Part shown: one piece after another, positions 1-54,221 of the stretch
Position numbering within the stretch: position 1 is the first letter of the stretch
Layout: every line of letters starts with the position of its first letter
Assembly (NCBI RefSeq): GCF_018320785.1
Contig: NW_024571694.1
Location: forward strand, 62,001-126,000
Length of the DNA stretch: 64,000 nucleotides
DNA from: Cheilinus undulatus
Taxonomy: Eukaryota; Chordata; Actinopteri; Labriformes; Labridae
Direction of reading: 5' to 3'
Made by a program: the position numbers and the translations under genes
The notes under the pieces: model-generated
Databases searched by the model: none
Seen by the model: the letters and a program-made list of their open reading frames with translations, nothing else
What the model was told of the DNA's origin: nothing

Positions 1-3000
1 GAGGATCTGAGGAAAAAGCATGAGCAAGAAATGAAAGAAAAAGAGGATCTGAAGCAAAAGCATTTGCAAGAAATGAAAGAAAAAGAGGATCTGAGGAAAA
101 AGCATGAGCAAGAAATGAAAGAAAAAGAGGATCTGAGGAAAAAGCATGAGCAAGAAATGAAAGAAAAAGAGGATCTGAAGCAAAAGCATTTGCAAGAAAT
201 GAAAGAAAAAGAGGATCTGAAGCAAAAGCATGAGCAAGAAATGAAAGAAAAAGAGGATCTGAGGAAAAAGCATGAGCAAGAAATGAAAGAAAAAGAGGAT
301 CTGAGGAAAAAGCATGAGCAAGAAATGAAAGAAAAAGAGGATCTGAAGCAAAAGCATGAGCAAGAAATGAAAGAAAAAGAGGATCTGAAGCAAAAGCATG
401 AGCAAGAAATGAAAGAAAAAGAGGATCTGAGGAAAAAGCATGAGCAAAAAATGAAAGAAAAAGAGGATCTGAGGAAAAAGCATGAGCAAAAAATGAAAGA
501 AAAAGAGGATCTGAAGCAAAAGCATGAGCAAGAAATGAAAGAAAAAGAGGATCTGAGGAAAAAGCATGAGCAAGAAATGAAAGAAAAAGAGGATCTGAGG
601 AAAAAGCATGAGCACGAACTGAAAGAAAAAGAGGATCTGAGGAAAAAGCATGAGCAAAAATGAAAGAAAAGAGGATCTGAAGCAAAAGCATGAGCAAGTA
701 ATGAAAGAAAAAGAGGATCTGAGGAAAAAGCATGAGCAAGAAATGAAAGAAAAAGAGGATCTGAGGAAAAAGCATGAGCAAGAAATGAAAGAAAAAGAGG
801 ATCTGAAGCAAAAGCATGAGCAAGAAATGAAAGAAAAAGAGGATCTGAAGCAAAAGCATGAGCAAGAAATGAAAGAAAAAGAGGATCTGAGGAAGAAGCA
901 TGAGCAAGAAATGAAAGAAAAAGAGGATCTGAAGCAAAAGCATTTGCAAGAAATGAAAGAAAAAGAGGATCTGAAGCAAAAGCATGAGCAAGAAATGAAA
1001 GAAAAAGAGGATCTGAGGAAAAAGCATGAGCAAAAAATGAAAGAAAAAGAGGATCTGAGGAAAAAGCATGAGCAAGAAATGAAAGAAAAAGAGGATCTGA
1101 GGAAAAAGCATGAGCAAGAAATGAAAGAAAAAGAGGATCTGAGGAAAAAGCATGAGCAAAAAATGAAAGAAAAAGAGGATCTGAGGAAAAAGCATGAGCA
1201 AGAAATGAAAGAAAAAGAGGATCTGAGGAAAAAGCATGAGCAAGAAATGAAAGAAAAAGAGGATCTGAGGAAAAAGCATGAGCAAAAAATGAAAGAAAAA
1301 GAGGATCTGAAGCAAAAGCATGAGCAAGAAATGAAAGAAAAAGAGGATCTGAGGAAAAAGCATGAGCAAGAAATGAAAGAAAAAGAGGATCTGAGGAAAA
1401 AGCATGAGCAAAAAATGAAAGAAAAAGAGGATCTGAAGCAAAAGCATGAGCAAGAAATGAAAGAAAAAGAGGATCTGAGGAAAAAGCATGAGCAAGAAAT
1501 GAAAGAAAAAGAGGATCTGAAGCAAAAGCATGAGCAAGAAATGAAAGAAAAAGAGGATCTGAAGCAAAAGCATGAGCAAGAAATGAAAGAAAAAGAGGAT
1601 CTGAAGCAAAAGCATTTGCAAGAAATGAAAGAAAAAGAGGATCTGAAGCAAAAGCATGAGCAAGAAATGAAAGAAAAAGAGGATCTGAGGAAAAAGCATG
1701 AGCAAGAAATGAAAGAAAAAGAGGATCTGAGGAAAAAGCATGAGCAAAAAATGAAAGAAAAAGAGGATCTGAAGCAAAAGCATGAGCAAGAAATGAAAGA
1801 AAAAGAGGATCTGAGGAAAAAGCCTGAGCAAGAAATGAAAGAAAAAGAGGATCTGAGGAAAAAGCATTTGCAAGAAATGAAAGAAAAAGAGGATCTGAAG
1901 CAAAAGCATGAGCAAGAAATGAAAGAAAAAGAGGATCTGAAGCAAAAGCATGAGCAAGAAATGAAAGAAAAAGAGGATCTGAGGAAAAAGCATGAGCAAA
2001 AAATGAAAGAAAAAGAGGATCTGAAGCAAAAGCATGAGCAAGAAATGAAAGAAAAAGAGGATCTGAGGAAAAAGCATGAGCAAGAAAAGAAAGAAAAAGA
2101 GGATCTGAAGCAAAAGCATTTGCAAGAAATGAAAGAAAAAGAGGATCTGAGGAAAAAGCATGAGCAAGAAATGAAAGAAAAAGAGGATCTGAGGAAAAAG
2201 CATGAGCAAGAAATGAAAGAAAAAGAGGATCTGAAGCAAAAGCATGAGCAAGAAATGAAAGAAAAAGAGGATCTGAGGAAAAAGCATGAGCAAAAAATGA
2301 AAGAAAAAGAGGATCTGAAGCAAAAGCATGAGCAAGAAATGAAAGAAAAAGAGGATCTGAAGCAAAAGCATTTGCAAGAAATGAAAGAAAAAGAGGATCT
2401 GAAGCAAAAGCATTGGCAAGAAATGAAAGAAAAAGAGGATCTGAAGCAAAAGCATGAGCAAGAAATGAAAGAAAAAGAGGATCTGAAGCAAAAGCATTTG
2501 CAAGAAATGAAAGAAAAAGAGGATCTGAAGCAAAAGCATGAGCAAGAAATGAAAGAAAAAGAGGATCTGAGGAAAAAGCATGAGCAAAAATGAAAGAAAA
2601 AGAGGATCTGATGAAAAAGCATGAGCAAGAAATGAAAGAAAAAGAGGATCTGAGGAAAAAGCATGAGCAAAAAATGAAAGAAAAAGAGGATCTGAGGAAA
2701 AAGCATGAGCAAAAAATGAAAGAAAAAGAGGATCTGAGGAAAAAGCATGAGCAAAAAATGAAAGAAAAAGAGGATCTGAAGCAAAAGCATGAGCAAGAAA
2801 TGAAAGAAAAAGAGGATCTGAGGAAAAAGCATGAGCAAGAAATGAAAGAAAAAGAGGATCTGAGGAAAAAGCATGAGCAAAAAATGAAAGAAAAAGAGGA
2901 TCTGAAGCAAAAGCATGAGCAAGAAATGAAAGAAAAAGAGGATCTGAGGAAAAAGCATGAGCAAGAAATGAAAGAAAAAGAGGATCTGAGGAAAAAGCAT

Positions 3001-6000
3001 GAGCAAGAAATGAAAGAAAAAGAGGATCTGAAGCAAAAGCATTTGCAAGAAATGAAAGAAAAAGAGGATCTGAAGCAAAAGCATTTGCAAGAAATGAAAG
3101 AAAAAGAGGATCTGAAGCAAAAGCATGAGCAAGAAATGAAAGAAAAAGAGGATCTGAGGAAAAAGCATGAGCAAGAAATGAAAGAAAAAGAGGATCTGAG
3201 GAAAAAGCATGAGCAAAAAATGAAAGAAAAAGAGGATCTGAAGCAAAAGCATGAGCAAAAAATGAAAGAAAAAGAGGATCTGAAGCAAAAGCATGAGCAA
3301 GAAATGAAAGAAAAAGAGGATCTGAGGAAAAAGCATGAGCAAGAAATGAAAGAAAAAGAGGATCTGAGGAAGAAGCATGAGCAAGAAATGAAAGAAAAAG
3401 AGGATCTGAGGAAAAAGCATGAGCAAAAAATGAAAGAAAAAGAGGATCTGAGGAAAAAGCATTTGCAAGAAATGAAAGAAAAAGAGGATCTGAAGCAAAA
3501 GCATGAGCAAGAAATGAAAGAAAAAGAGGATCTGAGGAAAAAGCATGAGCAAGAAATGAAAGAAAAAGAGGATCTGAAGCAAAAGCATTTGCAAGAAATG
3601 AAAGAAAAAGAGGATCTGAGGAAAAAGCATGCGCAAGAAATGAAAGAAAAAGAGGATCTGAGGAAAAAGCATGAGCAAGAAATGAAAGAAAAAGAGGATC
3701 TGAAGCAAAAGCATTTGCAAGAAATGAAAGAAAAAGAGGATCTGAAGCAAAAGCATGAGCAAGAAATGAAAGAAAAAGAGGATCTGAGGAAAAAGCATGA
3801 GCAAGAAATGAAAGAAAAAGAGGATCTGAGGAAGAAGCATGAGCAAGAAATGAAAGAAAAAGAGGATCTGAAGCAAAAGCATTTGCAAGAAATGAAAGAA
3901 AAAGAGGATCTGAAGCAAAAGCATGAGCAAGAAATGAAAGAAAAAGAGGATCTGAGGAAAAAGCATGAGCAAAAAATGAAAGAAAAAGAGGATCTGAGGA
4001 AAAAGCATGAGCAAGAAATGAAAGAAAAAGAGGATCTGAGGAAAAAGCATGAGCAAGAAATGAAAGAAAAAGAGGATCTGAGGAAAAAGCATGAGCAAAA
4101 AATGAAAGAAAAAGAGGATCTGAGGAAAAAGCATGAGCAAAAAATGAAAGAAAAAGAGGATCTGAAGCAAAAGCATGAGCAAGAAATGAAAGAAAAAGAG
4201 GATCTGAGGAAAAAGCATGAGCAAGAAATGAAAGAAAAAGAGGATCTGAGGAAAAAGCATGAGCAAGAAATGAAAGAAAAAGAGGATCTGAAGCAAAAGC
4301 ATGAGCAAGAAATGAAAGAAAAAGAGGATCTGAAGCAAAAGCATTTGCAAGAAATGAAAGAAAAAGAGGATCTGAAGCAAAAGCATGAGCAAGAAATGAA
4401 AGAAAAAGAGGATCTGAAGCAAAAGCATTTGCAAGAAATGAAAGAAAAAGAGGATCTGAAGCAAAAGCATGAGCAAGAAATGAAAGAAAAAGAGGATCTG
4501 AAGCAAAAGCATGAGCAAGAAATGAAAGAAAAAGAGGATCTGAGGAAGAAGCATGAGCAAGAAATGAAAGAAAAAGAGGATCTGAAGCAAAAGCATTTGC
4601 AAGAAATGAAAGAAAAAGAGGATCTGAAGCAAAAGCATGAGCAAGAAATGAAAGAAAAAGAGGATCTGAGGAAAAAGCATGAGCAAAAAATGAAAGAAAA
4701 AGAGGATCTGAGGAAAAAGCATGAGCAAGAAATGAAAGAAAAAGAGGATCTGAGGAAAAAGCATGAGCAAGAAATGAAAGAAAAAGAGGATCTGAGGAAA
4801 AAGCATGAGCAAAAAATGAAAGAAAAAGAGGATCTGAGGAAAAAGCATGAGCAAGAAATGAAAGAAAAAGAGGATCTGAGGAAAAAGCATGAGCAAGAAA
4901 TGAAAGAAAAAGAGGATCTGAGGAAAAAGCATGAGCAAAAAATGAAAGAAAAAGAGGATCTGAAGCAAAAGCATGAGCAAGAAATGAAAGAAAAAGAGGA
5001 TCTGAGGAAAAAGCATGAGCAAGAAATGAAAGAAAAAGAGGATCTGAGGAAAAAGCATGAGCAAGAAATGAAAGAAAAAGAGGATCTGAAGCAAAAGCAT
5101 GAGCAAGAAATGAAAGAAAAAGAGGATCTGAGGAAAAAGCATGAGCAAGAAATGAAAGAAAAAGAGGATCTGAAGCAAAAGCATGAGCAAGAAATGAAAG
5201 AAAAAGAGGATCTGAAGCAAAAGCATTTGCAAGAAATGAAAGAAAAAGAGGATCTGAAGCAAAAGCATGAGCAAGAAATGAAAGAAAAAGAGGATCTGAG
5301 GAAAAAGCATGAGCAAGAAATGAAAGAAAAAGAGGATCTGAGGAAAAAGCATGAGCAATAAATGAAAGAAAAAGAGGATCTGAAGCAAAAGCATGAGCAA
5401 GAAATGAAAGAAAAAGAGGATCTGAGGAAAAAGCATGAGCAAGAAATGAAAGAAAAAGAGGATCTGAGGAAAAAGCATTTGCAAGAAATGAAAGAAAAAG
5501 AGGATCTGAAGCAAAAGCATGAGCAAGAAATGAAAGAAAAAGAGGATCTGAAGCAAAAGCATGAGCAAGAAATGAAAGAAAAAGAGGATCTGAGGAAAAA
5601 GCATGAGCAAAAAATGAAAGAAAAAGAGGATCTGAAGCAAAAGCATGAGCAAGAAATGAAAGAAAAAGAGGATCTGAGGAAAAAGCATGAGCAAGAAAAG
5701 AAAGAAAAAGAGGATCTGAAGCAAAAGCATTTGCAAGAAATGAAAGAAAAAGAGGATCTGAGGAAAAAGCATGAGCAAGAAATGAAAGAAAAAGAGGATC
5801 TGAGGAAAAAGCATGAGCAAGAAATGAAAGAAAAAGAGGATCTGAAGCAAAAGCATTTGCAAGAAATGAAAGAAAAAGAGGATCTGAAGCAAAAGCATGA
5901 GCAAGAAATGAAAGAAAAAGAGGATCTGAAGCAAAAGCATGAGCAAGAAATGAAAGAAAAAGAGGATCTGAAGCAAAAGCATGAGCAAGAAATGAAAGAA

Positions 6001-9000
6001 AAAGAGGATCTGAGGAAAAAGCATGAGCAAGAAATGAAAGAAAAAGAGGATCTGAAGCAAAAGCATGAGCAAGAAATGAAAGAAAAAGAGGATCTGAGGA
6101 AAAAGCATGAGCAAGAAATGAAAGAAAAAGAGGATCTGAAGCAAAAGCATTTGCAAGAAATGAAAGAAAAAGAGGATCTGAAGCAAAAGCATTGGCAAGA
6201 AATGAAAGAAAAAGAGGATCTGAAGCAAAAGCATGAGCAAGAAATGAAAGAAAAAGAGGATCTGAAGCAAAAGCATTTGCAAGAAATGAAAGAAAAAGAG
6301 GATCTGAAGCAAAAGCATGAGCAAGAAATGAAAGAAAAAGAGGATCTGAGGAAAAAGCATGAGCAAAAAATGAAAGAAAAAGAGGATCTGAGGAAAAAGC
6401 ATGAGCAAGAAATGAAAGAAAAAGAGGATCTGAGGAAAAAGCATGAGCAAGAAATGAAAGAAAAAGAGGATCTGAAGCAAAAGCATGAGCAAGAAATGAA
6501 AGAAAAAGAGGATCTGAGGAAAAAGCATGAGCAAGAAATGAAAGAAAAAGAGGATCTGAAGCAAAAGCATGAGCAAGAAATGAAAGAAAAAGAGGATCTG
6601 AGGAAAAAGCATGAGCAAGAAATGAAAGAAAAAGAGGATCTGAGGAAAAAGCATGAGCAAGAAATGAAAGAAAAAGAGGATCTGAAGCAAAAGCATTTGC
6701 AAGAAATGAAAGAAAAAGAGGATCTGAAGCAAAAGCATTTGCAAGAAATGAAAGAAAAAGAGGATCTGAGGAAAAAGCATGAGCAAGAAATGAAAGAAAA
6801 AGAGGATCTGAGGAAAAAGCATGAGCAAGAAATGAAAGAAAAAGAGGATCTGAAGCAAAAGCATTTGCAAGAAATGAAAGAAAAAGAGGATCTGAAGCAA
6901 AAGCATGAGCAAGAAAAGAAAGAAAAAGAGGATCTGAGGAAAAAGCATGAGCAAGAAATGAAAGAAAAAGAGGATCTGAAGCAAAAGCATTTGCAAGAAA
7001 TGAAAGAAAAAGAGGATCTGAAGCAAAAGCATGAGCAAGAAATGAAAGAAAAAGAGGATCTGAGGAAAAAGCATGAGCAAAAAATGAAAGAAAAAGAGGA
7101 TCTGAGGAAAAAGCATGAGCAAGAAATGAAAGAAAAAGAGGATCTGAGGAAAAAGCATGAGCAAAAAATGAAAGAAAAAGAGGATCTGAGGAAAAAGCAT
7201 GAGCAAAAAATGAAAGAAAAAGAGGATCTGAAGCAAAAGCATGAGCAAGAAATGAAAGAAAAAGAGGATCTGAGGAAAAAGCATGAGCAAGAAATGAAAG
7301 AAAAAGAGGATCTGAGGAAAAAGCATGAGCAAAAAATGAAAGAAAAAGAGGATCTGAAGCAAAAGCATGAGCAAGAAATGAAAGAAAAAGAGGATCTGAG
7401 GAAAAAGCATGAGCAAGAAATGAAAGAAAAAGAGGATCTGAGGAAAAAGCATGAGCAAGAAATGAAAGAAAAAGAGGATCTGAAGCAAAAGCATTTGCAA
7501 GAAATGAAAGAAAAAGAGGATCTGAAGCAAAAGCATTTGCAAGAAATGAAAGAAAAAGAGGATCTGAAGCAAAAGCATGAGCAAGAAATGAAAGAAAAAG
7601 AGGATCTGAGGAAAAAGCATGAGCAAAAAATGAAAGAAAAAGAGGATCTGAAGCAAAAGCATGAGCAAGAAATGAAAGAAAAAGAGGATCTGAGGAAAAA
7701 GCATGAGCAAGAAATGAAAGAAAAAGAGGATCTGAGGAAAAAGCATGAGCAAGAAATGAAAGAAAAAGAGGATCTGAAGCAAAAGCATGAGCAAGAAATG
7801 AAAGAAAAAGAGGATCTGAAGCAAAAGCATGAGCAAGAAATGAAAGAAAAGAGGATCTGAGGAAAAAGCATGAGCAAAAAATGAAAGAAAAAGAGGATCT
7901 GAAGCAAAAGCATGAGCAAGAAATGAAAGAAAAAGAGGATCTGAAGCAAAAGCATGAGCAAGAAATGAAAGAAAAAGAGGATCTGAGGAAAAAGCATGAG
8001 CAAGAAATGAAAGAAATAGAGGATCTGAAGCAAAAGCATGAGCAAGAAAAGAAAGAAAAAGAGGATCTGAGGAAAAAGCATGAGCAAGAAATGAAAGAAA
8101 AAGAGGATCTGAGGAAAAAGCATGAGCAAGAAATGAAAGAAAAAGAGGATCTGAGGAAAAAGCATGAGCAAGAAATGAAAGAAAAAGAGGATCTGAGGAA
8201 AAAGCATGAGCAAGAAATGAAAGAAAAAGAGGATCTGAGGAAAAAGCATTTGCAAGAAATGAAAGAAAAAGAGGATCTGAAGCAAAAGCATGAGCAAGAA
8301 ATGAAAGAAAAAGAGGATCTGAAGCAAAAGCATGAGCAAGAAATGAAAGAAAAAGAGGATCTGAGGAAAAAGCATGAGCAAAAAATGAAAGAAAAAGAGG
8401 ATCTGAAGCAAAAGCATGAGCAAGAAATGAAAGAAAAAGAGGATCTGAGGAAAAAGCATGAGCAAGAAATGAAAGAAAAAGAGGATCTGAGGAAAAAGCA
8501 TGAGCAAGAAATGAAAGAAAAAGAGGATCTGAGGAAAAAGCATGAGCAAGAAATGAAAGAAAAAGAGGATCTGAGGAAAAAGCATGAGCAAGAAATGAAA
8601 GAAAAAGAGGATCTGAGGAAAAAGCATGAGCAAGAAATGAAAGAAAAAGAGGATCTGAGGAAAAAGCATGAGCAAGAAATGAAAGAAAAAGAGGATCTGA
8701 GGAAAAAGCATGAGCAAGAAATGAAAGAAAAAGAGGATCTGAGGAAAAAGCATGAGCAAGAAATGAAAGAAAAAGAGGATCTGAAGCAAAAGCATTTGCA
8801 AGAAATGAAAGAAAAAGAGGATCTGAAGCAAAAGCATGAGCAAGAAAAGAAAGAAAAAGAGGATCTGAGGAAAAAGCATGAGCAAGAAATGAAAGAAAAA
8901 GAGGATCTGAGGAAAAAGCATGAGCAAGAAATGAAAGAAAAAGAGGATCTGAGGAAAAAGCATGAGCAAGAAATGAAAGAAAAAGAGGATCTGAGGAAAA

Positions 9001-9698
9001 AGCATGAGCAAGAAATGAAAGAAAAAGAGGATCTGAAGCAAAAGCATGAGCAAGAAATGAAAGAAAAAGAGGATCTGAGGAAAAAGCATGAGCAAGAAAT
9101 GAAAGAAAAAGAGGATCTGAAGCAAAAGCATGAGCAAGAAATGAAAGAAAAAGAGGATCTGAGGAAAAAGCATGAGCAAGAAATGAAAGAAAAAGAGGAT
9201 CTGAGGAAAAAGCATGAGCAAGAAATGAAAGAAAAAGAGGATCTGAAGCAAAAGCATTTGCAAGAAATGAAAGAAAAAGAGGATCTGAAGCAAAAGCATG
9301 AGCAAGAAATGAAAGAAAAAGAGGATCTGAGGAAAAAGCATGAGCAAAAAATGAAAGAAAAAGAGGATCTGAAGCAAAAGCATGAGCAAGAAATGAAAGA
9401 AAAAGAGGATCTGAGGAAAAAGCATGAGCAAGAAATGAAAGAAAAAGAGGATCTGAAGCAAAAGCATTTGCAAGAAATGAAAGAAAAAGAGGATCTGAAG
9501 CAAAAGCATGAGCAAGAAATGAAAGAAAAAGAGGATCTGAGGAAAAAGCATGAGCAAGAAATGAAAGAAAAAGAGGATCTGAAGCAAAAGCATTTGCAAG
9601 AAATGAAAGAAAAAGAGGATCTGAAGCAAAAGCATTTGCAAGAAATGAAAGAAAAAGAGGATCTGAAGCAAAAGCATTTGCAAGAAATGAAAGAAAAA
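1..9698 (+). repeat. 42-bp coding minisatellite, 231 units
   Basis: The unit is 14 codons. Main variable sites are agg-aaa versus aag-caa (RK or KQ), gag versus ttg, rarely tgg (E, L or W), and gaa versus aaa (E or K). The span is 9698 bases; with the four single-base deletions added back it is 9702, exactly 231 x 42. A partial unit at 9699-9716 leads into the tail. Third codon positions hardly vary: the main silent change is aaa to aag in a few RKK codons (about 893, 3370, 3832, 4548). Such uniformity at nucleotide level points to recent unequal exchange or gene conversion. Confidence 0.97.
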
Positions 9699-9812
9699 GA
9701 GGATCTGAGGAAAAAGCTGTGGAGGTATCATGTTTTGCATATAAGTATATTACTAATATACTCACTTATTTATATATATACTACTACAAAGCTGTCCTTG
9801 GGTAACCTCTGA
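1..9812 (+). CDS. 3' part of a GIMAP-type gene: giant 14-residue repeat rod plus C-terminal membrane anchor (frame interrupted)
   Basis: The reading frame is open from base 1, so the 5' part with any GTPase domain is outside the window. The sequence encodes tandem 14-residue units ([14 protein letters not shown] and variants), then a tail with a hydrophobic stretch of about 16 residues ([16 protein letters not shown]) and a short polar end, stop TGA 9810-9812. The same tail ends the GIMAP gene at 40303-52878 with one residue changed, and the 3' flanks are also homologous. I therefore infer a tandem paralogue of that gene, anchored by its C-terminus as several GIMAPs are. Lesions: one base missing at about 658, 670, 2589 and 7849, all in A-runs, and a GAA-to-TAA change at 5359-5361. 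The first three deletions restore frame after 2590. Either the assembly under-called A-runs and the coding stretch is longer than 9.7 kb, or this copy is a decaying pseudogene. The TAA is a substitution and is harder to explain as a length error. Confidence 0.62.
5359..5361 (+). other. In-frame TAA inside the repeat array
   Basis: Codon 14 of one unit reads taa where its neighbours read gaa, a G-to-T substitution. It is the only stop in the array not caused by a length change in an A-run. It separates two open stretches of 923 and 832 codons. Confidence 0.9.
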
Positions 9813-9985
9813 TCAAGTTAGGTTTTGTTAGGTCTTGAGGAAGGATGTTGTGGAAGTCACAAGAGGGCAGTGTTTACTGACCAGTATGAGTGTTTAGTGT
9901 GATAAGTGAGGCCAAAACAATATCTGGACTCCTAACTGTTCAGTTTCAGGAGACTACGATGGAATAACAGGAAATGTTTTGTAAG

Positions 9986-10151
9986 AGACAATCTGAAGAC
10001 AAAGCATGATGAAGGACTTGAAGAAAAAGAGGATCTGAAGAAAAAGCGTGAGCAAGAAATAAATGAACTTAAAAAAAATACAAAAAAAATGTATCATCCT
10101 CTGATCTCTTCAACTCTTGATCATTTAAAGACAGAAGAAGATGTTTCTTAA
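9986..10151 (+). other. Candidate alternative C-terminal exon of the first GIMAP-type paralogue
   Basis: Downstream of the stop at 9810-9812 is a second charged reading frame with a divergent repeat unit (KEKEDLKKKREQE). A possible donor follows ctgtggag at 9725 (gtatca) and a possible acceptor AG lies at 9984-9985. Joining them continues the frame to TAA at 10149-10151. The equivalent segment in the second paralogue is also open. The acceptor has a poor pyrimidine tract, so splicing is an inference; it could instead be a relic of an older C-terminus. Confidence 0.35.
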
Positions 10152-10515
10152 TGATTTAATGATAATAGTCATATAGGATGTTAAGATGCTCCAAGTGTTG
10201 AATGAGGCCACAAAATGACTTCTAACATCAGATATAAACAGTGTGTCTGTCCTTGCAAATACATTTTCCTCCAAACATTCATGGGAAAACAAAGTTACAG
10301 CAATTAAGCTAATCTTCAGTCATGTGACTGATGTGGAAGCCTGGAGGGCAAAACGAGTTGAGGAAAGTGGCAGCTTTCATTGAATTCTCCATGAAGCTGC
10401 TGAAGGGCTTTTTAAAAAATTCTGTCTCTTCAAAACAACATGTTTACACTTAATGTCCACATTAGAAAGACAAGATATTAAGATGAATATGTTTTGGACA
10501 CTTGTGGCCCTCTGT

Positions 10516-10816: not shown

Positions 10817-12448
<1,632 letters not shown>

Positions 12449-12479
12449 TTGATCCTTGGTATTGAAAATAAGTGGATGT

Positions 12480-28045: not shown

Positions 28046-28049
28046 TATA

Positions 28050-29684
<1,635 letters not shown>

Positions 29685-40302: not shown

Positions 40303-43300
40303 ATGGCGACTGCAGCAGAGGGTGAGTCCAGTCAGACTCTATTAGTCTGGGTAAAGTCCTTGTGTGATGATGTGAAGACATGTGTACAGGTGCATCTCAA
40401 AAAATGTAAAATCATTTAAAAGTTTATTTTTTCCTGTGATTTTTTTTTTTTTTTTTTAAGATTTATTTTTGGGCTTTTTCGTACCTTTATTAGAGAGAGG
40501 ACAGTGGATGGAGCCGGAAACAGGGAAGAGAGAGGGAAGAGACATGCAGGAAATAGCGCCACGGGCCGGACCCAAACCCGGGCCACCTGCGCACACGGCG
40601 CGCGCCCCAACCACTCAACCACCGGCGCACCCCTTTTTCCTGTGATTTACTTAAAAAAGATAAACTTGTATAAATTCTAGATTCAAATACAAAGTGAAAT
40701 ATTCCTAGATTGTTTTTTTCATTATGATAATTACAGTTTACAGCTCACAAAAATCTCAAATCCACTATCTCTAAATGTAAGATTATTGTGAAAAAGTCCT
40801 ATTTGCAAAGATTTCCTTAGCATGTGTTTTCTCACTGATTCAGTACACACAGCCACAATCATGGGACAGAATGCTGACCTGACTGTTGTTCAGAAGTCAG
40901 TTATTTGCACCCTCAACAAGGAGGGTAAGCCACAGAAGGTCACTGCTGGAAGGCCAGGCTGGTCTCAGAGGCTGTATCAGAGCAGATTCATGGAGAGTTG
41001 ACTGAAGTGAGAAGTGTGGGATTAGCTCAGCCTTTAGAAGATTTTCAAACAAAGCAGATTCAAGAACTTAGGGGAGCTTCACAAGGAGTGGACTGAGACC
41101 GGAGTCAGAGGATCAAGAGCCACCAAGTGTCGTGTTTCTAATGTCCAGCCACTACTGAACGACAGACAGGGTTGTGTTCTACCTGGGCTAAGGAGAAAAA
41201 GAACTCCTGTTTCCCAGTGGTGCAAAGTTCTGTTTTCAGATGAAACTCTAATTTAAATTTCATTTAGAAATCCAGATCCCAGAGTCTGGGAAGGATCAGA
41301 GAGACACAGAATCCAAGGGGCTTGAAGTCTAGTGTTTCCAGTCTCCACAGTCAGTGATGGTTTGGAGTTTACTGGTCTTCATCAAGTCCAGAGTTAACTC
41401 TGTCAGCTGTCTACTAGAAGATTTTAAAGACCTTCATGCTTCTATCTGTTGAGAAGCTTTATGGAGATACTGATTTCCTTTTCACCTGCCCACAGTGAAG
41501 CCAGAGCTACTAGAAATTGGTTTACTGACCATGGTATCACTGTGTTTGATTGGCCAGCCAACTGGTCTGACCTGAACCCCACAGAGAATCTTTGGGGTGC
41601 AGTAAAGAGAAATATGAGAGACACCAGACTCAACAATCCAGACGAGCTGAAGGCTACCAGAGCAGCCTGGGCTTCATAACACCCCAGCAGTGCCACAGAC
41701 TGATGGCCTCCAAGATATATATAGATATATATACAAGAGCAGAGATGCAGTAATTTGTGCAAAAGAAGCTCCAACCAAATACTGAATGCATCAATGAACA
41801 GAATTTTCCAGAAGGTCAACATTTCTGTATATTAAAACCTTTTGGACTGATGTGTAGTGATATTCTAAAATTTTGAGATGGTGGATTTTTTTGTGAGTTG
41901 TAATCATCAAGATCAACACAAAAAGTCTTGAAATATTTCTCTTTGTATGAGATGAATCTAGAATATGTGAAAGTTTCACTTCTTGAATTAAATCACAGCA
42001 AAAAAAGTAAACTTTTTCATGATATTCTATTTTTTGATGCATCTTTCTATGTACAGATACATATATTATCTTTTTCAAATAAAAATATGTAACATTTATA
42101 ATCATAAGTTTGATTTCATTGGCATTAAAGACCACAATCACTCATGATTACATTAATCTGTTTTCCAATCATAGATGGCAGTTTTCCTATAAGGCGCACT
42201 AAGAGTCTTAACTGGCTGCCACCATCCAGTGAGTGAATCTTTTTTCTGTGATATGACAATCTGTTTTAACAGTATTTTGTCATTAATATCTGTAAGTAGA
42301 GGAGATAATAATAATAATAATAATAATAATGAATGAATGATGAAATGTTAACCAGTTTTAAGGATAACTACATTAAAATGCCTCCATGGTTATTTATACA
42401 TTTTAAATTGTGATTATCATTTCACTGTTTATAATGACAGAACATATTTTACTGTTTATATAAACAAAACATGCACATCACTCTGTGCTGCTAATTTTGT
42501 GGTGTTTTTACATAAAACTTGCTCCATTGATTCAAGTGTGCCTTAACAAAAGTGATTTAATACTGATAACTGTGGTGACTTTGGTCACAAAAATCCTGAT
42601 ATGAAATTTTTATATTGCTACATCTATAGCATGAAGGTAACCAGACACTATTCATTTTAATGCAAGTTTTAATAATTTCAAATGTAAGTAAATCTTTGGC
42701 GTCTTTGTTTTTTCAACAGTGTCAGAGCTGAGGGTTGTTCTACTGGGGAACAGCTGGTCTGAGAGGAGTTCAGTGGGGAATTTCATCCTGGGAGAGAATG
42801 TGTTCAACACTCAGGAAGAACCAGATAGCTGTCTCAGAATCAGCAGGACAGTGAAGGGAAATGACGTAGTTCTTATCAACACCCCGGATCTGATGAAATG
42901 CAACAAATCTCAAACATGGGTGACAAGTTATGTAAAAAACTGTGTGAGACTCTGTGATCCTGGACCTCATGTGTTCCTGCTGGTTATACAATCTGAAGAC
43001 TTCACTGAGGAACACAAAGACCGTCTCTGCAGAGTCCTTGACACTTTCAATGATCGATCATTTGATCATTCATTCTTATTAATATCAACACCAGGAGATG
43101 AGAGTTCAGGTTTAAAGAAAACATACAAGTCACTCCCTCCATTGGTAGACATAATCAAAAAGTGTAAAAACAGATACTTGGAGAGGGAAAACCTTGAACT
43201 TCCAGAGCTGTTGACACGTTTGGGTCAAATAGTAAAGGAGAACAATGGAGATCATGTCAGCTATGAAGCATTTGAGGAAACAACAGATACATTACCAAGA

Positions 43301-44530
43301 CGTGTTCAGAGCTCCAACCAAAAGGAAACTCAGATTTCTCTCAAAGATAAAATTGAGGCTGCTGGTAAGTGCAGAAACAATCATGATAACAGTGAAACCT
43401 TGAGCAGACAAATCTTTCTTGACTTATAGAGTAAAGCTGAAAACTATTGTGGTCTTCTTTTCACAGGAATAATTAATCCACAAAATGTGGTCCTACGAGG
43501 AAAACCCCAGGGTCAGGGTGAGTAAAATTATCACAGTCTAAGTCATGTGCTGGTGAACCCAAAGACTTAGGCAGGGTGAAGGATGACCCTACTAGGAGTA
43601 CAAACAGCAGGAATGGATGATGTTAAAATCCTCCAGAAGAGAACATTTGTGGATGAGAGAAGGTGACCTCCTGTAGGGGACTGCATACAGGTCAGATGGT
43701 AGGGATCAAAGCATTGTGATTATAGTAAAGAGTTCCAAATTGTGCTGGAATATTAGAAGTAGCAGAAGGAAGCCCTTTGATGGAGATGGTACCCAGCATA
43801 GGTAAGGACACTGGTTTACCAAAGGGCCTGCCCTTCAGATACCTTCAGAGATACTAAGAGCATCTCTCTGGGTTTTCTTTTGTATGTTTGAGTGAAAGAG
43901 TTTGCAAAATAATTTGAAACTTTCTAAGAGAATTATTACTTTTACCTGTGACTTGAAGATTGTTGAGTGTCGGTGTTAAGTGATTTAATTCAGTCATTTT
44001 TGGTTTCCTTTGCCACACAAGCCTGGTGACCTTTGCATTTAATTTCTGCATTTTCTCTGTCTCCCAAGTTGTTTTAGTTTGTTTTCAGCTGCTTGGAACC
44101 AATGGTGTAGTTTCTCCATTATATTAAAAACTTTTAGAACTTTTGGTTTATCACTTACAAACATAGTCCCCCAAACTCCCCCCATCCTGACAAAAGCAGC
44201 CAGGAAGGTACAATAACGATCAAATAGCCAAAAGTGAATGATTGAGTAGATTGGGTAGGTAATAGCAGAAGTTTGACTCAGACTTGAGTCTGAGGAGGAA
44301 GGGGGAGGAGCATCGTACAGCCAGACAGAGCCAGGCCTCAGCTACACCAGAACTGAACATGAACAATCTAACCCAAACAGACCATTGGCCATTAGAGAAG
44401 ATGTGGGATGAGCTCCAGGAAAATCAGAGGGGTGGTAAACTAGATGTCCCCAAGGTAGAGTTGGGAAAGAACATCAAGATCCAGTAGAATATTGTAATTT
44501 TTGGTTGTGTGTGTAATCTTACCTTACCTT

Positions 44531-47500: not shown

Positions 47501-50500
47501 AGCCAGGAAATTTCACCACTGGACTTGTTGCACAGGTGGTATCCTATCACAGTACCACGCTGGAATTCACTGAGCTCCTGAGAGCGATGAAACCTTGCAA
47601 AGCAGATGGATTCGCCCGTTTCTGTGTTTCTCACTGACAAATCCATCTTGCAATGCTCCCATCTGAACTATTTGGACCCGGTTAGAAAGTGACAGAACCA
47701 ATCAGGGACAAGGGGCAGCACTTTCGAGCGCGGCAGAGTCAGGATGTAAGCAAGCAGCGAGAAGAGAAGAGGCAGTTGTAGATATGGCAGAAGACTATTG
47801 CTTGGCCGTTAATGGCGTTAATCTGCTACGTTAACGTGAGACTCTTATCGCAGGATAAGAAAATTATCGCATGTTAATTTATTCACTAAAGGGGCTTACA
47901 GACACACCGCCGAGCACATGTAGTGGGCTACCAACATGCCTCCGGTCATTTCCAGTGGGAGGAGGGCAGAGGTTTGGGTCTGCTGTGAGCAGGCTTACGC
48001 TCCGCTGAACTGGACAACATCTGTTTTTAATGAAAGAGGGAATGCTTGGGTGTGTGATTACAACCAGTAGTCAATATTACATGTTGTTTGCACATAAGCA
48101 CAAACCAGAGGTTGCGCTGTGACAGAGCACCACATCAGCTTTATGACATCATCGTAAAAGCTAAACTTCTTTAAACAGCGTGGCAGTTTGTTCACATTTT
48201 TCCTCAATAAAAGGCAGAAATCATCAGAATCCAGTCAATAAATGTTGTGCTGTGACTCACCTTACAGATGAACACAGGCTGGAGTCAGTGAGAGGAGGTG
48301 AAAAGCAAAAGAAGTCTCCTGTCACCTCAAAAACTGCTGTGTCTTTGCAGTGTGAGCCCATTTAATCCTCTGAGCTACACGTAGATGTGCAGATATGAAG
48401 AGCGAAATTGCTGGCATCTTAAAAGTGATTTTAATCATCCATGGATGCATGATGAACTTTTTGCCGGGTCAAAACAAAAAACAATCTTCCTCTTCTTTCG
48501 CCTCCTTTGCGGGGTTGTAAACTAGCTACATGCATACCGCCACCTGCTGTTTCAGACCGAGTAAATACGCAAGTGCATCAGGACACAGTTCAATATTGCT
48601 AGTGTGAAAGCAAGCCTGCGGGGGAAGGGGGAGGGTGAGGAATTGCGGCGCGGTGCGGTTCGAATCAACTGGGCCTAATGTGAAAGCACCCTAAAATCTC
48701 GCTGATCCATCCTGACGGAGAGCTTCATACAGCACACACTCATGCATCACAGCACTGAGACAAATTGGAGAGATGGAGAACAACTTTTTAATTCTGTCTC
48801 TGTTATGATCTGTGAGTAGGTTACAAACATATGCCTTTATCTGTTAGATTTTCATGACTGATATCATGGAAACTAGGGTGTTAAAATGAGGTTCAGAGAG
48901 GGAGAGAGAGGAGAGTTGGGTGGTGGTGAGCGAGCAAGAGAGAACAGGCGCGGATCTGAATCATCCTTCACCCATCTCTTTATTATATTTCCATGGTTGA
49001 AATCCACATGAAAAATTAGCAAACTTTGGTGTTTAAAGTGAGGGTTCAGTGGTGAGCAAGCGAGGTGTTCTCGAGCAGTCTGTGATGCATTTTCCTTAAT
49101 ATTTAGATAGGTCAAGCATTTTTTTAATGTCTTTGGCAAAATTCAAATTAGCATTTTAATCTAGATTAATCTAGAGTAACTACAGGATTGCAGTGAGATT
49201 AATCTAGATTTAAAAAATTAATCTATGCCCAGCATTACAGAAGAAATTAGAGTGGATGTTGCCAAAGCGCCAGTTTTATCAGAACATGATGACAATTCTT
49301 CATTAAAAGAAGAACAAAGAACAGAACTGAGTTGTTTTGTTTTCAAAAACGGCAAAAGTCGTGTACTGACATGTCTACAGTTGCCATAATTCATGTTATG
49401 CAGTTCTCTGTGGATTTTACTCCTTGGTATGGGCTACGTCACGTGTTTTGTTGCTCTGATTGGCCCATAAAGTTGTGACAGACAGAAAGTTCATCTGATC
49501 ACCCTTCCAGTGTTTTTTTCAAAGCCTCTGCCCTTTCCCAAACGCTGTGCATGAGATGGCAGGTTAGAGTGACCCATTCTTTCACAAATGTTTGTCGAAA
49601 CAGTCTGCATGCCTAGGTGCTTGATTTTATACACCTGCGGCCATGGAAGTGATTGGAACACCTGATTTTTATTATTTGGATGGGTGAATGAATACTTTTG
49701 GCAATATGGTGTATTTAACCTCCATTATTATTGCTAAAATTATTCAACTATCTTCAAATGCAGCATTAGCAGTTCAGTGCAGGCCTTTCAAAAATAATCA
49801 GATTTTTATGGAATATGTTCTTCAACTTTTTCAAAAATGTTCTGCATTATTTATACATACATTTTTTCAGCTTTTTAGAAACAGCATTAGCACTAAAGTG
49901 ACAACTTATTCATCATGCAGCATTTACAGCTCAGTGTCTTCAAACATTGCATTCTGTAATTCATATTACAGTTTAACATTGTGATATGCAGAACAAGTAC
50001 TGTGAAACAGCCATATGATAATGAATATTCTAAACACTGATCTATTTTTGTGTTGATTACAGCATCAACAATCAGGATTGTGCTACTGGGAAAAAGCAAG
50101 GCCAAACAGACAAAACTTGGTAACATCATCATCAGAGACCAAGTTGTTTATCAACAAAAACGTCAGACCAAACACTCAGAGGCCCACAGTGGGGACTGGA
50201 GAGGAAACCCAGTAACAGTCGTGAAAACTTCAGACGTGTTCAGTCTGTCTGTGGAGGCTGTGAGAAGAGAGGTGAAGAGCTGTGTGAGTCTTTGTCCTCC
50301 TGGACCAAATGTTCTGCTGCTGTTAGTGAAACCTTCTGATTTCACTGAAGAGAACAGACAAGCACTGAAGTTCATCCTGAGTTTGTTTGGTCAAGATGTT
50401 TTTAAACACTCAATGGTCATCATGACACACAGAGAGGATATACAGAGCCCTGTAAAGAAGCTGATTGAAAACTGTGGAGGAAGATGCATCTATATGCTTG

Positions 50501-52878
50501 AAGATAATCATGATCTTATGAAGAAGATTGAAAACATTGTATGTGAGAAGGAGGGAAACTTCCTCACCTTCACTGAAGAGTCCACAAGACCAAAGTCTGA
50601 ACTCAACAAACCAGCTTTAAACCTGGTTCTGTGTGGGAGAGAGGGATCCGGAAAGACTTCAGCAGCAAAGGTCATTTTAGGTCAGACAGGTCTTAATCCA
50701 GTCTCCAGCTCATCAGAGTGTGTTAAATATCAGGGAGAGGTTTGTGGACGTTGGGTTTCCCTGGTGGAGCTTCCTGCCTTGTATGAAAAACCTCTGGAGG
50801 AAGCGATGGAGGAGTCACTCAGATCTGTCTCACTCTGTGATCCTGAAGGTGTCCACGCCTTCATCCTGGTCCTACCTGTGGGTCCACTCACTGATGAGGA
50901 CAAGGGAGAGTTAGAGGCCATCCAGAACACATTTGGGTCTAAAGTCAATGATTTCACTATGATCCTGTTCATGTCAGAGTCAGATCCCAAAGATCCAGCT
51001 GTAGTTAACTTTGTAGAAAAAAGCAAGGAAATCACAGAAATCATTCAGAGCTTTGGAGGGAGATCTTTTGTTCTCAACATCAAGGACAACCAGCAGATCC
51101 CAGAGCTGTTGCAGATGCTGGAAAAGATGACGACTGGAGAATCCAGATGCTTCACCAAAGACACATTCACTCAGTCTCAGATGGAGAAAATTGTCCGACT
51201 TCAAACTGAGCTGCAGGATGTGAAACAGAGGAGGGTGAGGGAAGCTGATAATGACACCCAGAGCAGAGAATGTCTCAGGATAGTTCTGATTGGAAGGACT
51301 GGCAGTGGAAAAAGTGCGACAGGAAACAACATTTTGGGAAAAGATTGTTTTTACTCTGATTCCAGCTCAAAGTCTGTGACCAAGGCTTGTGAAAAAGCAA
51401 CTGGAGAGATTGATGGTCAGCCTGTGGTTGTGGTTGACACCCCCGATTTGTTTGACACAGCTCTGTCTGATGAGGATGTTCAGCAGGAGCTTGGGAAATG
51501 CATCAGCATGCTGGCTCCTGGACCTCATGTGTTCCTGCTAGTGCTGCAGATCGGCCGCTTCACTAAGGAGGAAAAAGACTCAGTGGAACTGATCCAAAAA
51601 TATTTTGGAAAGCATGCAGCAGATTTCATCCTTGTTGTATTCACCAGAGGTGATGATCTCCGTCAGTCAACTGAGAGTTACTTAGAGGACTCTGATGACG
51701 TATTGAAAAAACTGATCCACGACTGTGGAGGAAGATACCAGGTCTTCAATAACAAGAACCAGACAGACCGCACACAAGTCAGAGAGTTACTGACTAAAGC
51801 AAACAAAATGCTTGAAGACAATGGCGGCAGCTTCTACACATCTGATATGTTCCAAGAGGCTGAGGCGGCGATAGAGGAAGAAGTGGAGAGGATCCTGGAA
51901 GAAAAAGAAGAAGAAATGCAGAGACAGAAAGAGGAGCTTCAGAGAAAACATGAAGAAGAAATGGAAGAAATGAAGAAAAGAATGGAGAAACAGAGGAAAG
52001 AAAGTGAACAGCAGAGAGAGAAACAACTCAGAGAAATGGAGGGAAAAATCAACAAGGAGCGAGAAAAGAGGAAGAAAGAGCAGGAAAAGAGAGAAGAGGA
52101 GGACAGGAAGAGAAAAAGGCAGGATGAACTTAAACAGAAAGAGTGGGAGGACAAACTTGAAAACCTGGAGAGAAAAATAAAGTTAGAATCAGAGGAAAAA
52201 GAAACCATTGATAAAAAGTGGGAACAGAGCAGAAAAGAGCTGAGAAAACAGCAAGAGGACTGGGAGAGGGAAAGAACTGAATGGTGGAGACAGAGAAGGC
52301 TTGAAAATGAGAAAATACGACATGAAGAACAGTTAAAAATTAAAAAGCTTCAAGAGGAGTATGATCAGGAAAGAGAAAAAGTTGAGAAAAAGAGAAGAGA
52401 GGACGACCAAAGACGAAGAGAACAGGAGGAGAAGGAGAGAAGAGAACTAGAGGAAAACTATAAGAAAAAAATGGAGGACATGAAGAAGAGGAATGAAGAG
52501 GAGGCCAGAAAACAAGCTGAAGAATTCAATGAGTTCAGAAAAAATTACGACAAAGACTATAATGAACTAGAAGAGAAACGCATGAAGGAAATGCGTAAAT
52601 TGAAGAAAAAGCATGAGAGACAACTGTATGAGGAAGAGAGGAGACATAAGAAACAGTACAGGCTGTTACAAGAAGAAAGAGAGGATCTGAGGAAAAAGCA
52701 TGAGCAAGAAATGAAAGAAAAGGAGGATCTGAAGCAAAAGCATGAGCAAGATATAAAAGAAAAGGAGGACCTGAGGAAAAAGCTGTGGAGGTATCATGTT
52801 TTGCATATAAGTATATTACTAATATACTCACTTATTTATATATATACTACTACAGAGCTGTCCTTGGGTAACCTCTGA
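40303..52878 (+). CDS. Multi-domain GTPase IMAP family gene (GIMAP8-like), five coding exons
   Basis: GIMAPs are AIG1-type GTPases that act on membranes, in vertebrates mainly in lymphocyte survival. Proposed exons: 40303-40321, 42175-42228, 42720-43364, 43467-43517 and 50063-52878. All junctions have GT and AG and all are phase 1; the sum is 3585 bases, or 1194 residues plus stop. The start MATAAE follows a possible 5' UTR acceptor at 40222. Domains: AIG1-1 about 28-205 and AIG1-2 about 260-420 (both without a P-loop lysine), AIG1-3 about 441-624 (GREGSGKT) and AIG1-4 about 661-864 ([18 protein letters not shown]). A charged helix follows at about 865-1160, then a hydrophobic anchor at 1169-1184. 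Introns 1 and 4 are filled with transposons. The first domain could instead belong to a separate gene, but the phase match argues for one. Confidence 0.8.
40390..42060 (+). pseudogene. Tc1-like element with transposase relic in GIMAP intron 1
   Basis: The left end, caggtgcatctcaaaaaatg, is matched by ttttttgatgcatct at the right. The transposase is read from about 40860 ([15 protein letters not shown]) through [16 protein letters not shown] and FSDETL to [20 protein letters not shown] at about 41550-41610, with many stops and shifts. A SINE has inserted near its left end. Confidence 0.8.
40441..40632 (-). mobile_element. tRNA-derived SINE with target duplication
   Basis: On the minus strand it starts ggtgcgccggtggttgagtgg (box A-like) and has ggtttgggtcc (box B-like) about 40 bases on, a central body, and an A-rich 3' end seen as poly-T at 40440-40457. 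tttttcctgtgattt occurs on both sides (about 40427 and 40633). A diverged relative lies at 62063-62235. Confidence 0.85.
42305..42332. repeat. (AAT)n microsatellite in GIMAP intron 2
   Basis: Nine or so uninterrupted aat units. Confidence 0.95.
42720..43364 (+). CDS. GIMAP exon 3: degenerate first AIG1 domain
   Basis: After the acceptor tttttcaacag the frame reads [20 protein letters not shown]: the G1 position has no GKS. The G3-like block is LINTPDLM, and the conserved box [21 protein letters not shown] is clear. The G4 position reads STPGDE instead of TRxD, so nucleotide binding is unlikely. The family's [17 protein letters not shown] stretch follows. The donor is gctg|gtaagt. Confidence 0.85.
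44280..45120 (+). pseudogene. Degenerate LINE reverse-transcriptase relic
   Basis: Around 44878-44905 the plus strand reads [11 protein letters not shown], the PGPDG block that opens many LINE RT domains. [31 protein letters not shown] sequence follows, equivalent to the block before the RT fingers, with stops. The L1-type 3' end at 44485-44745 is nested inside. The clade cannot be fixed. Confidence 0.5.
44485..44745 (+). mobile_element. L1-type LINE 3' end with poly(A) and target duplication
   Basis: aagatccagtagaat at 44476-44490 is repeated as aagatccagcagaat after the A-tail at about 44746-44760. Before the tail is aaatgaaaataaaaaatttg, in the style of L1 3' ends. A T24-26 run sits near 44530-44553. 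No ORF remains. The family call is tentative; the retroposition signature is clear. Confidence 0.65.
45488..45686 (-). mobile_element. tRNA-derived SINE with L2-type 3' tail
   Basis: On the minus strand: gggcagctagatagctcagtgg (box A) and gggttcaaacg (box B), a linker with ccctcaggcaaggtcctt, then ttgctttggacaaaagtgtctgccaaatgac. The last block closely matches the 3' tail of the L2 LINE at 61129-61161, the usual arrangement for a SINE mobilised by L2. Confidence 0.85.
45670..46330. repeat. Unnamed interspersed repeat with internal tandem halves (copy 2)
   Basis: It shares with 31560-32300 the ordered words gcagttttgt, gaactcaacaacatttctttatt, agcaacactgaaagctt, cagaaaaggtgtttt, and then ggcccgtcatgaatatgacagacagaatgttc. 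It is best preserved in its second half. No known protein matches the small frames at 46016-46390. Confidence 0.6.
46797..47646 (-). pseudogene. Tc1-like transposase relic in GIMAP intron 4
   Basis: On the minus strand: an N-terminal HTH region ([13 protein letters not shown] to [19 protein letters not shown]), several shifts between 47290 and 47450, then [31 protein letters not shown] (first D), [18 protein letters not shown] and [13 protein letters not shown] (second D), up to [12 protein letters not shown]. It breaks off just before the DLNPIEH block with the third catalytic residue, so it is truncated as well as shifted. Confidence 0.9.
47800..49240. mobile_element. hAT-like / MITE relics
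   Basis: The left words are ggcgttaatctgctacgttaa and ttatcgcatgttaatt; the right words are ttaatctagattaatctaga and aattaatctatgcccagc, both of the attaatc type seen at fish hAT ends. A second MITE end, cctaatgtgaaagcacccta, lies at 48671-48690. No transposase frame is readable. Confidence 0.4.
49240..49570. repeat. Unnamed interspersed repeat (copy 3)
   Basis: It carries gccagttttatcagaaca, cttcattaaaagaagaacaa and gattggcccataaagttgtg, as in 31560-32300 and 45670-46330. It is shorter, with only one of the internal units. Confidence 0.55.
49580..49712. mobile_element. Tc1-like 3' terminal fragment
   Basis: gcatgcctaggtgcttgatt, tggaagtgattggaacacc and the end gaatacttttggcaatatgg are the terminal region of a common fish Tc1 family. 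It has no coding sequence. Confidence 0.65.
50063..52878 (+). CDS. GIMAP last exon: three AIG1 domains, charged helix, anchor
   Basis: The acceptor is gtgttgattacag. AIG1-2 has [16 protein letters not shown], with no proper P-loop, but keeps [24 protein letters not shown]1-3 starts at about 50614 with [21 protein letters not shown]1-4 starts at about 51274 with [20 protein letters not shown], then [10 protein letters not shown], the box [17 protein letters not shown] and VVFTRGDDL. From about 51870 the sequence is Glu/Lys/Arg-rich helix. At 52680-52784 lie about 2.5 copies of the 42-bp unit that fills 1-9716. The last 31 residues hold the hydrophobic segment and end at TGA 52876-52878. Confidence 0.93.
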
Positions 52879-53051
52879 TCAAGTTAGGTTTTGTTAGGTT
52901 TTGAGAAAGGATGTTGTGGATGTCCAAAGAGGGCAGTGTTTACTGACCAGTATGAGTGTTTAGTGTGATAAGTGGGGCCAAAACAATATCTGGACTCCTA
53001 ACTGTTCAGTTTCAGGAGACTACGATGGAATAACAGGAAATGTTTTGTAAG

Positions 53052-53169
53052 AGACAAGCTGAAGAAAAAGCATGATGAAGGACTTAAAGAAAAAGAGGAT
53101 CTGAAGAAAAAGCGTGAGCAAGAAATAAATGAACTTAGAAAAAATACCAAAAAATGTATCATCCTCTGA
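53052..53169 (+). other. Candidate alternative C-terminal exon of the GIMAP gene
   Basis: A donor after tggag at 52790 (gtatca) joined to an acceptor AG at 53050-53051 would skip the anchor-coding 261 bases. The frame would then continue through KLKKKHDEGLKEKEDL and KKKREQEINELRKN to TGA 53167-53169. Both paralogues keep this frame open. The acceptor is weak, so use in vivo is inference. Confidence 0.4.
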
Positions 53170-54221
53170 TCTCTTCAACTCTTGATCATTTAAAGACAGA
53201 AGAAGATGTTTCTTAATGATTTAATGATAATAGTCATATAGGATGTTAAGATGCTTAAAGTGTTGAATGAGGCCACAAAATGACTTTGACATCGATAAAA
53301 ACAGTGTCTCTGTCCTTGCAAATACATTTTCCTCCAAACATTCATGGGAGACAAAGTTACAACAACTAAGCTAATCTTCAGTTATGTGACTGATGTGGAA
53401 GCCTGGAGGGCAAAAAGAGTTGAGGAAAGTGGCAGCTTTCATTGAATTCTCCATGAAGCTGCTGAAGGGCTTTTTAAAAAATTCTATCTCTTCAAAACAA
53501 CATGTTTACACTTAATGTCAACATTAGAAAAGAAGATATTAAGATAAACTATTTTTGGACACTTGTGACCCTCATACAGCACCCTGGACATTAATGCTAT
53601 TGCTATAAACAGTAATGCACCCACCAGACCTTCACAACAGTGAAGTTTTTACTAATATTTAGTGGAGAATCCTTTCTCTAACACTGTTAACAGGATGAAA
53701 ACCTACAAAAGTAAAGACTGCTTTTTGTATTTTCAGTGTTGCTGGGTTGCAATACTGCAGTTTGGGAAGTGAAGAGCAAATAATTCATAATCATTAAAAA
53801 AATAATGTTTATTAACTGGCATTGATAGTTATTGTTGGTTGAAAACCATTTTAGGATCTTGTTGGCTATGAGGTTGTCAAACTATTTGAATGTTTTTTTG
53901 TTTGTTTGTTTGCAGCAAAGTATTTCTAAACACTTTTAAATCAGTATCATTAGTTTAATATTTTCTGTTTGCATGTTTGAATATTCAGTGATCAAACCAA
54001 AACATACTATTGGGCTTGTTGCCACAAGAGGATGCTTTTGTATATGAACTGTCTTGTTCCTGCCCAGAAGTGACCACTCCATCTCAGATCAGTTTGAGTG
54101 AACATCATCCACAAGGTTGTCATCCCTGTTATTATTGTATCAGTATGTGATTTTATGTTGATCATTGTTTTAATCTCAATTTGGTATTTTTAATCATTGT
54201 TTTTATTTTTCAGTTTTCCTA

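Follow-up and report, generated by a model that had tools for sequence, protein, structure and literature searches.

A GIMAP-type gene of the humphead wrasse, the fish Cheilinus undulatus, contains a real coding minisatellite, an array in which a unit of 42 bp (that is, 14 codons) stands 281 times in succession, and a giant tether is a possible product of this array. The array lies on C43, a contig of 145,196 bp in the 1.17-Gb assembly of a single fish, and reaches into the window analysed here (that is, the whole stretch of 64,000 nucleotides, C43:62001–126000). As the explanation for this structure, we lean towards a minisatellite expansion located in the final large coding exon of this gene, most simply on one haplotype.

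Structure of the array and its host gene

An earlier note on this DNA had described 231 tandem 42-bp units in a single orientation, and the two methods applied here agree with it. Tandem Repeats Finder (TRF) gives 231.5 copies of 42 bp at window 1–9717 (score 17061, which rules out a repeat by chance), and a unit-by-unit split yields 231 whole units, all in one orientation, of which 228 measure 42 bp, two 41 bp and one 40 bp. As the note had also stated, the array begins before the window; across the contig it comprises 281 whole units (C43:59901–71698) of 22 types, with the four main types (A–D) accounting for 241 of the 281. The exact type A unit has 95 matches assembly-wide, and positions among the matches listed span C43:59901 to 71572. 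Given that the unit length is a multiple of three and the units stand in frame with an AIG1 exon, the array can be classed as a coding minisatellite.

Three related GIMAP8-like genes (g1, the array gene g2 and g3) are arranged in tandem on C43, and the motif is present on this one contig as one unit in g1 (exon frame C43:7237–10056), as two in g3 (exon frame C43:112041–114875; the gene named in the earlier note) and as 281 in g2. The main frame of g2 has 1503 codons (C43:57225–61733), or about 1482 once the 21 intron-like residues at its start are set aside, and comprises three AIG1 stretches, a charged stalk and whole units 1–43 of the array. Its exon scores 387.3 bits for AIG1 over the three stretches, and an upstream exon (C43:43355–44062) scores 83.9 bits, both against a Pfam cut-off of 27; a leader-like exon near C43:32174 is a weak match. 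Extension in the 5' direction, as the note had proposed, thus found AIG1 sequence in frame before the array together with a further AIG1 exon upstream, which bears out the assignment of the array gene to the GIMAP type. Its relatives among solved GIMAP structures are GIMAP7 (3zjc, E = 1.6e-49) and also GIMAP4, 5, 2 and 1. The main features within the window are as follows.

Window 1–9698, + strand: 3' part of the g2 array, 231 whole 42-bp units of 14 codons each (TRF, unit split, full contig)
Window 9607–10512, + strand: shared 3' end and flank, aligned with window 52673–53573 (94.9% identity, 907 columns)
Window 42720–43429, + strand: g3 AIG1 exon, from an apparent acceptor to the end of the open frame, with the 3' boundary not set (AIG1, 93.5 bits)
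Window 50063–52878, + strand: g3 main exon, with three AIG1 stretches, charged stalk, two units, partial unit and hydrophobic tail
Window 52681–52764, + strand: both 42-bp units of g3, which are similar to types A and B of the array (TRF, sequence)

The sequence also confirms that the array continues into a tail shared with the gene that ends at window 52878. In the main exon of that gene, AIG1 scores 366.9 bits in three stretches, and protein P0001 is 100% identical to it over the residues searched. At the DTPG position of the best-conserved G domain, which we take to be the G3 motif, g1, g2 and g3 all read DTPD (in g3 within the third AIG1 stretch, window 51240–51500). Among the relatives examined (that is, the 120 matches listed, of 431), 101 have DTPG, two DTPD (P0001 and P0002), one DTLG and one DTPS. 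Because the loss of this motif, in what is otherwise a clear member of the family, bears on activity, we call g2 GIMAP-like and do not claim GTP hydrolysis, which DTPD may alter across the wrasse cluster.

The g2 exon itself looks like a mosaic of g1 and g3 when similarity is followed in 200-bp steps. Over its first 1.8 kb it is closest to g1 (96.5–99.5%), and over the last 0.55 kb before the array it is closer to g3 (97.0–98.5% versus 94.0–94.6%).

Origin of the array and an array-free version of the locus

The first unit of g3 differs from type A by one base and the second from type B by three, and a two-unit motif of this kind is a plausible starting point of the array. The order of unit types recurs in blocks of 14 units at distance 87 and of 11 units at distance 106, compared with a maximum of 10 in 500 shuffles; a third block of 9 units is within chance, blocks of 9 or 10 being seen in 15 of the 500 shuffles. 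For the units of the window by themselves, the longest block is 14 (at most 11 in 300 shuffles), and the autocorrelation at lag 87 is inside the shuffle range (0.368 versus a maximum of 0.375). The recurring blocks show that runs of neighbouring units have been duplicated inside the array, a process for which unequal exchange or slippage would be the candidate mechanisms. Given that the longest exact repeat in the array is 634 bp, the repeated unit order fits block exchange and not a long assembler loop; a loop over long blocks is disfavoured by the non-periodic order of units as well as by the 634-bp limit.

One of 13 distinct rare array changes is synonymous, which is within the neutral expectation (7.5 to 23.4 percent for the range of biases considered); types A–D are excluded from this tally, and so is type 'a', whose GAG to TTG change we explain by A/C recombination. 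No selection on unit residues is seen in these 13 changes, which are few and make a weak test. Conservation of the frame cannot serve as proof of selection either, as duplicating an in-frame unit would leave the frame intact even without selection, and the changes are compatible with neutrality. The present length of the array may be viewed as a largely neutral outcome of minisatellite instability, and not as a selected rod. With a unit of 42 bp, equal to 14 codons or two seven-residue charge periods, gain or loss of whole units would shift the length of the stalk without shifting the frame.

Four copies of the sequence for the protein tail are present across the assembly; C43 carries three of them, and the fourth is on the 55-Mb contig C5. 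The C5 region examined (4418–4464 kb) contains no N and holds a single gene with two units (the first minus one A) and a partial unit, but no array. Its exon 1–2 region and the first 1.1–1.2 kb of its big exon are g1/g2-like (mostly 95–97%, with some weaker intron blocks), and from about C5:4,443,065 onward it matches g3 and the right flank of g3. Identity is 98.7% over the whole 22.2-kb alignment and about 99.5% in the right flank. The g3-like part past the switch, about 20.9 kb long, differs by 101 substitutions and 40 indels, and 68 of these substitutions are concentrated in two stretches.

We also observed that C5:4444309–4444441, compared with window ~52436–52567, carries 19 substitutions in 132 bp of otherwise nearly identical sequence. 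Of these, 18 are transversions and one is a transition (14 of the 19 read A or G to C), and this stalk copy further has two single-base deletions. Such a cluster suggests an error confined to this part of the consensus or, alternatively, an unusual mutation shower.

Most simply, C43 would represent the other haplotype of the locus, and the same fish would carry array and array-free versions. Alternatively, C5 is possibly a collapse or mis-join of tandem copies. The earlier note had counted collapse to a few units in independent assemblies against its proposal; this is borne out in part by the C5 version, which has two units, but that version belongs to the same assembly and is not a clean allele of g2, its 5' half being a g1/g2-like paralogue and its 3' half g3. 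It could also be argued that assembly, by inflating a repeat, produced most of the array length, considering the array-free version on C5 and the small size of C43 beside a chromosome-sized contig. We consider this quite improbable, as a non-periodic unit order, a longest exact repeat of only 634 bp and the presence of 22 unit types are unlike a looped repeat.

Reading frame and C terminus of the array gene

As assembled, the array is not one reading frame, being broken by two identical TAA units and by four lost A's in three units. The breaks within the window are as follows.

Window 631–670, + strand: 40-bp unit with two A's lost, one from a six-A run and one from a five-A run
Window 2561–2601, + strand: frame-breaking 41-bp unit in which a six-A run is one A short
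Window 5359–5361, + strand: TAA in unit 178 of 281, GAA to TAA (unit split, full contig)
Window 7810–7850, + strand: frame-breaking 41-bp unit in which a five-A run is one A short

The identical TAA variant also occurs in unit 44, upstream of the window (C43:61734–61736), and it is here that the assembled frame from the AIG1 exon stops, after 43 whole units and with no tail; translation from that exon would thus end in unit 44 without the tail. Within the window, the sense strand is open at 1–660, 641–2590, 2584–5358, 5362–7857 and 7833–9809. The earlier claim that 231 units amount to 3234 continuous residues therefore fails for the sequence as assembled, given the TAA and the three short units in the window. 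All three minus-strand frames are also open across the array, which we read as a product of unit composition and not as antisense coding, since it is the plus frame that joins the AIG1 exon.

If these stops are taken at face value, the gene is truncated or decaying, with genuine stops ending translation in unit 44 and the remaining array untranslated, a reading to which we give somewhat less than an even chance. Besides the end of the assembled frame at C43:61734–61736, it draws on the identity of the TAA in units 44 and 178, which fits a true mutation copied inside the array, and on the compatibility of the array changes with neutrality. The rest of the exon sits uneasily with decay, however: outside the array, its 871 codons contain no stop or frameshift, and pairwise dN/dS is 0.535 versus g1 and 0.65 versus g3 (in this comparison g1 was not cut before its repeat, and the extra g1 codons fell in gaps).

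A second difficulty for genuine stops is that the lost A's and the rare substitutions resemble consensus errors, so that the frame breaks may be false. All four missing A's sit in runs of five or six A's, compared with one comparable A-run loss among 20 single-base gaps (counted by eye) in the g1/g2 alignment of ~9.1 kb. Likewise, the distinct rare array substitutions comprise 2 transitions and 11 transversions, versus 53 and 27 between g1 and g2 (p = 0.0013); alternative tallies of the rare changes (2:12, 2:13 or 3:14) give p of 0.0003 to 0.0021, and across other tallies and references the contrast has p of 0.0003 to 0.0034. The sequencing chemistry of the assembly was not found in the excerpts of PMC10932694 and PMC12223197, the latter on a HiFi genome of Cheilinus chlorourus.

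Were the frame breaks assembly errors, one haplotype would encode a complete giant GIMAP in which translation runs through all 281 units. In addition to the A-run losses and the transversion excess, the unbroken non-array part of the g2 exon and the C5 stalk, which shows both the error-like cluster described above and two single-base deletions, point this way. We nevertheless regard an intact giant as unlikely, given that the same TAA in two units is less readily produced by random error, that no array protein was found at the lengths searched (a weak negative) and that the joined C terminus of g2, too, lacks a CaaX box. The translated extent would be 43 whole units without a tail as assembled, or all 281 units if the breaks are consensus errors.

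The C terminus calls for separate treatment, and the features that bear on it are as follows.

Window 9699–9812, + strand: partial unit, hydrophobic tail and stop of g2, if the 225 bp are unspliced
Window 9725–9949, + strand: 225-bp GT...AG stretch, a possible g2 intron (in-frame join; equal length in three paralogues)
Window 9950–10151, + strand: possible alternative C-terminal exon of g2, an open frame without an intact CaaX box
Window 52791–53015, + strand: 225-bp GT...AG stretch of g3, a possible intron with the hydrophobic tail inside
Window 53016–53169, + strand: possible alternative C-terminal exon of g3, ending in KKCIIL and a stop

The earlier note had treated the hydrophobic tail as a membrane anchor. 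Such tails do occur in the family, given that excerpts of PMC8201404 describe TM tails in GIMAP1, 3 and 5. In the wrasse genes, we think it likely that the hydrophobic tail is instead a read-through of the 225-bp intron and that the usual C terminus of the family is a CaaX prenylation box. All three paralogues have a GT...AG stretch of exactly 225 bp whose removal leaves the frame intact, and in g3 the join ends in CIIL. Among the matches listed (120 of 431), Cys stands at position −4 in 104 (at each of the other seven of the last eight positions, Cys is found in at most 7) and a CaaX pattern is present in 99; of the 21 listed without CaaX, a TM-like tail occurs only in P0001 and P0002. The consensus of a 16-protein alignment likewise ends in KCIIL. 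Against a read-through stand the NCBI models P0001 and P0002, which use this tail, and the joined ends of g1 and g2, which have no CaaX box. The tail as an anchor is thus doubtful, in that an in-frame splice of 225 bp removes it and gives a CaaX-type end in g3, though not in g2; the possible C-terminal forms are a hydrophobic tail if unspliced, CIIL in spliced g3 and neither intact in spliced g2. If so, the C terminus of the wrasse models is probably mis-annotated and should be a CaaX end. A read-through of this kind concerns the anchor only and is compatible with each of the alternatives weighed above.

Predicted product and comparison with known systems

The array extends, by its predicted translation, the charged helical stalk downstream of three AIG1 domains. 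In units 1–43, charges recur every seven residues with a power of 68, compared with a maximum of 2.8 for the native stalk among 13 periods tried; as an exact 14-residue repeat forces power to 14 or its fractions, it is the peak at 7, and not at 14, that is informative. E(i)–K(i+4) pairs, which mark single alpha-helix (SAH) domains, number 23.1 per 100 residues in these units (at most 13.3 in 200 shuffles) and 15.4 in the native stalk (at most 13.6 in shuffles). A firm heptad coiled coil is weakly indicated, as the best a/d seam has a hydrophobic fraction of 0.34, a measure that does not separate the array from the native stalk (0.24). AlphaFold, given the array and tail (659 residues) as a single sequence, predicts one helix from residue 2 to 657 (mean pLDDT 70.9, pTM 0.24). 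We read the pattern as a single alpha-helix, although the AlphaFold helix does not separate a monomer from a coiled coil.

These data qualify the earlier proposal of a continuous helical rod of 485 nm. A 659-residue stretch is indeed predicted to be helical, but the 3234 residues are not continuous as assembled, and 'rod' is too strong a word for an SAH. SAH domains have been described as constant-force springs that unfold and extend (excerpts of PMC4183817), and a stiff rod of 485 nm is therefore unlikely. By calculation, 281 units equal 3934 residues with a contour of 590 nm at 0.15 nm per residue, and a g2 exon with all 281 units would encode 4842 residues. If made, the product would carry its GTPase domains on a helical tether of great length and spring-like behaviour, the end of which might be fixed to the membrane by prenylation or by a hydrophobic tail. 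The fullest form of this proposal (that is, an uninterrupted GIMAP of ~5,000 residues with a single-helix tether of ~590 nm contour on one haplotype, two units on the other, and a minisatellite that sets the reach) is, in our judgement, unlikely.

GIMAP8 has three GTPase domains (excerpts of PMC8201404), and GIMAP8 and fish GIMAP8-like proteins resemble g2 in having several AIG1 domains per protein, the fish forms also having a long charged stalk; g2 differs by its 281 copies of a 14-residue unit at the end of the stalk. Internal repeats of the charged stalk are present in 37 of the 120 GIMAP8-like matches listed (of 431), including P0003, P0004 and P0010 (the count excludes P0042, a 38th repeat-bearing relative with a duplicated G-domain region). 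In these other fish proteins the duplications have periods of 72–159 residues and 1.3–4.0 copies, in contrast to 14 residues by 281 in g2, and stalk length seems to evolve fast across fishes. No period-14 array was found among the 120 matches listed (of 431), in which the top period-14 score belongs to g3 with its two units.

Searches with the array itself gave a similar picture. For the first 43 units against proteins of about 827–2630 residues, the only matches among those listed were P0001 and the bacterial protein P0121 (29% identical); with this biased query P0001 itself reached only E = 2.7e-6, so that the negative is weak. Among 4003 candidates, no array protein of about 1781–5667 residues was found, likewise a weak negative. 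In line with the earlier note, which knew of no described GIMAP of this form, none was found by title or start of abstract in the open-licence literature.

Involucrin is another coding minisatellite. The zinc-finger array of PRDM9 is also a coding unit in tandem and evolves as a minisatellite (excerpts of PMC8925151); the array described here is likewise a tandem coding unit, but with far more units and in the stalk of an immune GTPase. With SAH domains it shares a charged, E/K-rich predicted helix with spaced opposite charges. Compared with the 27-turn helix in the excerpts of PMC4183817, the array is represented by 602 residues analysed and 3934 possible; a record length for a natural SAH was not found in the excerpts of PMC5812594.

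If translated, the locus would offer a natural length series of a tethered immune GTPase (1, 2 and 281 units on one contig) and an extreme single alpha-helix. If untranslated, it would illustrate plainly how a coding minisatellite can outrun the gene that holds it, and would caution that in draft assemblies long coding repeats can carry doubtful stops and be lost from protein sets.

The window also contains a 1.6-kb element in two copies of opposite orientation that are 93.5% identical (window 10826–12449 and 28047–29664); its minus-strand frames resemble a Tc1-type transposase by eye only, and window 11265–11600 within it has no Pfam match at 1e-3. Downstream of g3, at window 59465–60460, lies a retroelement reverse transcriptase frame (RVT_1, 90.4 bits).
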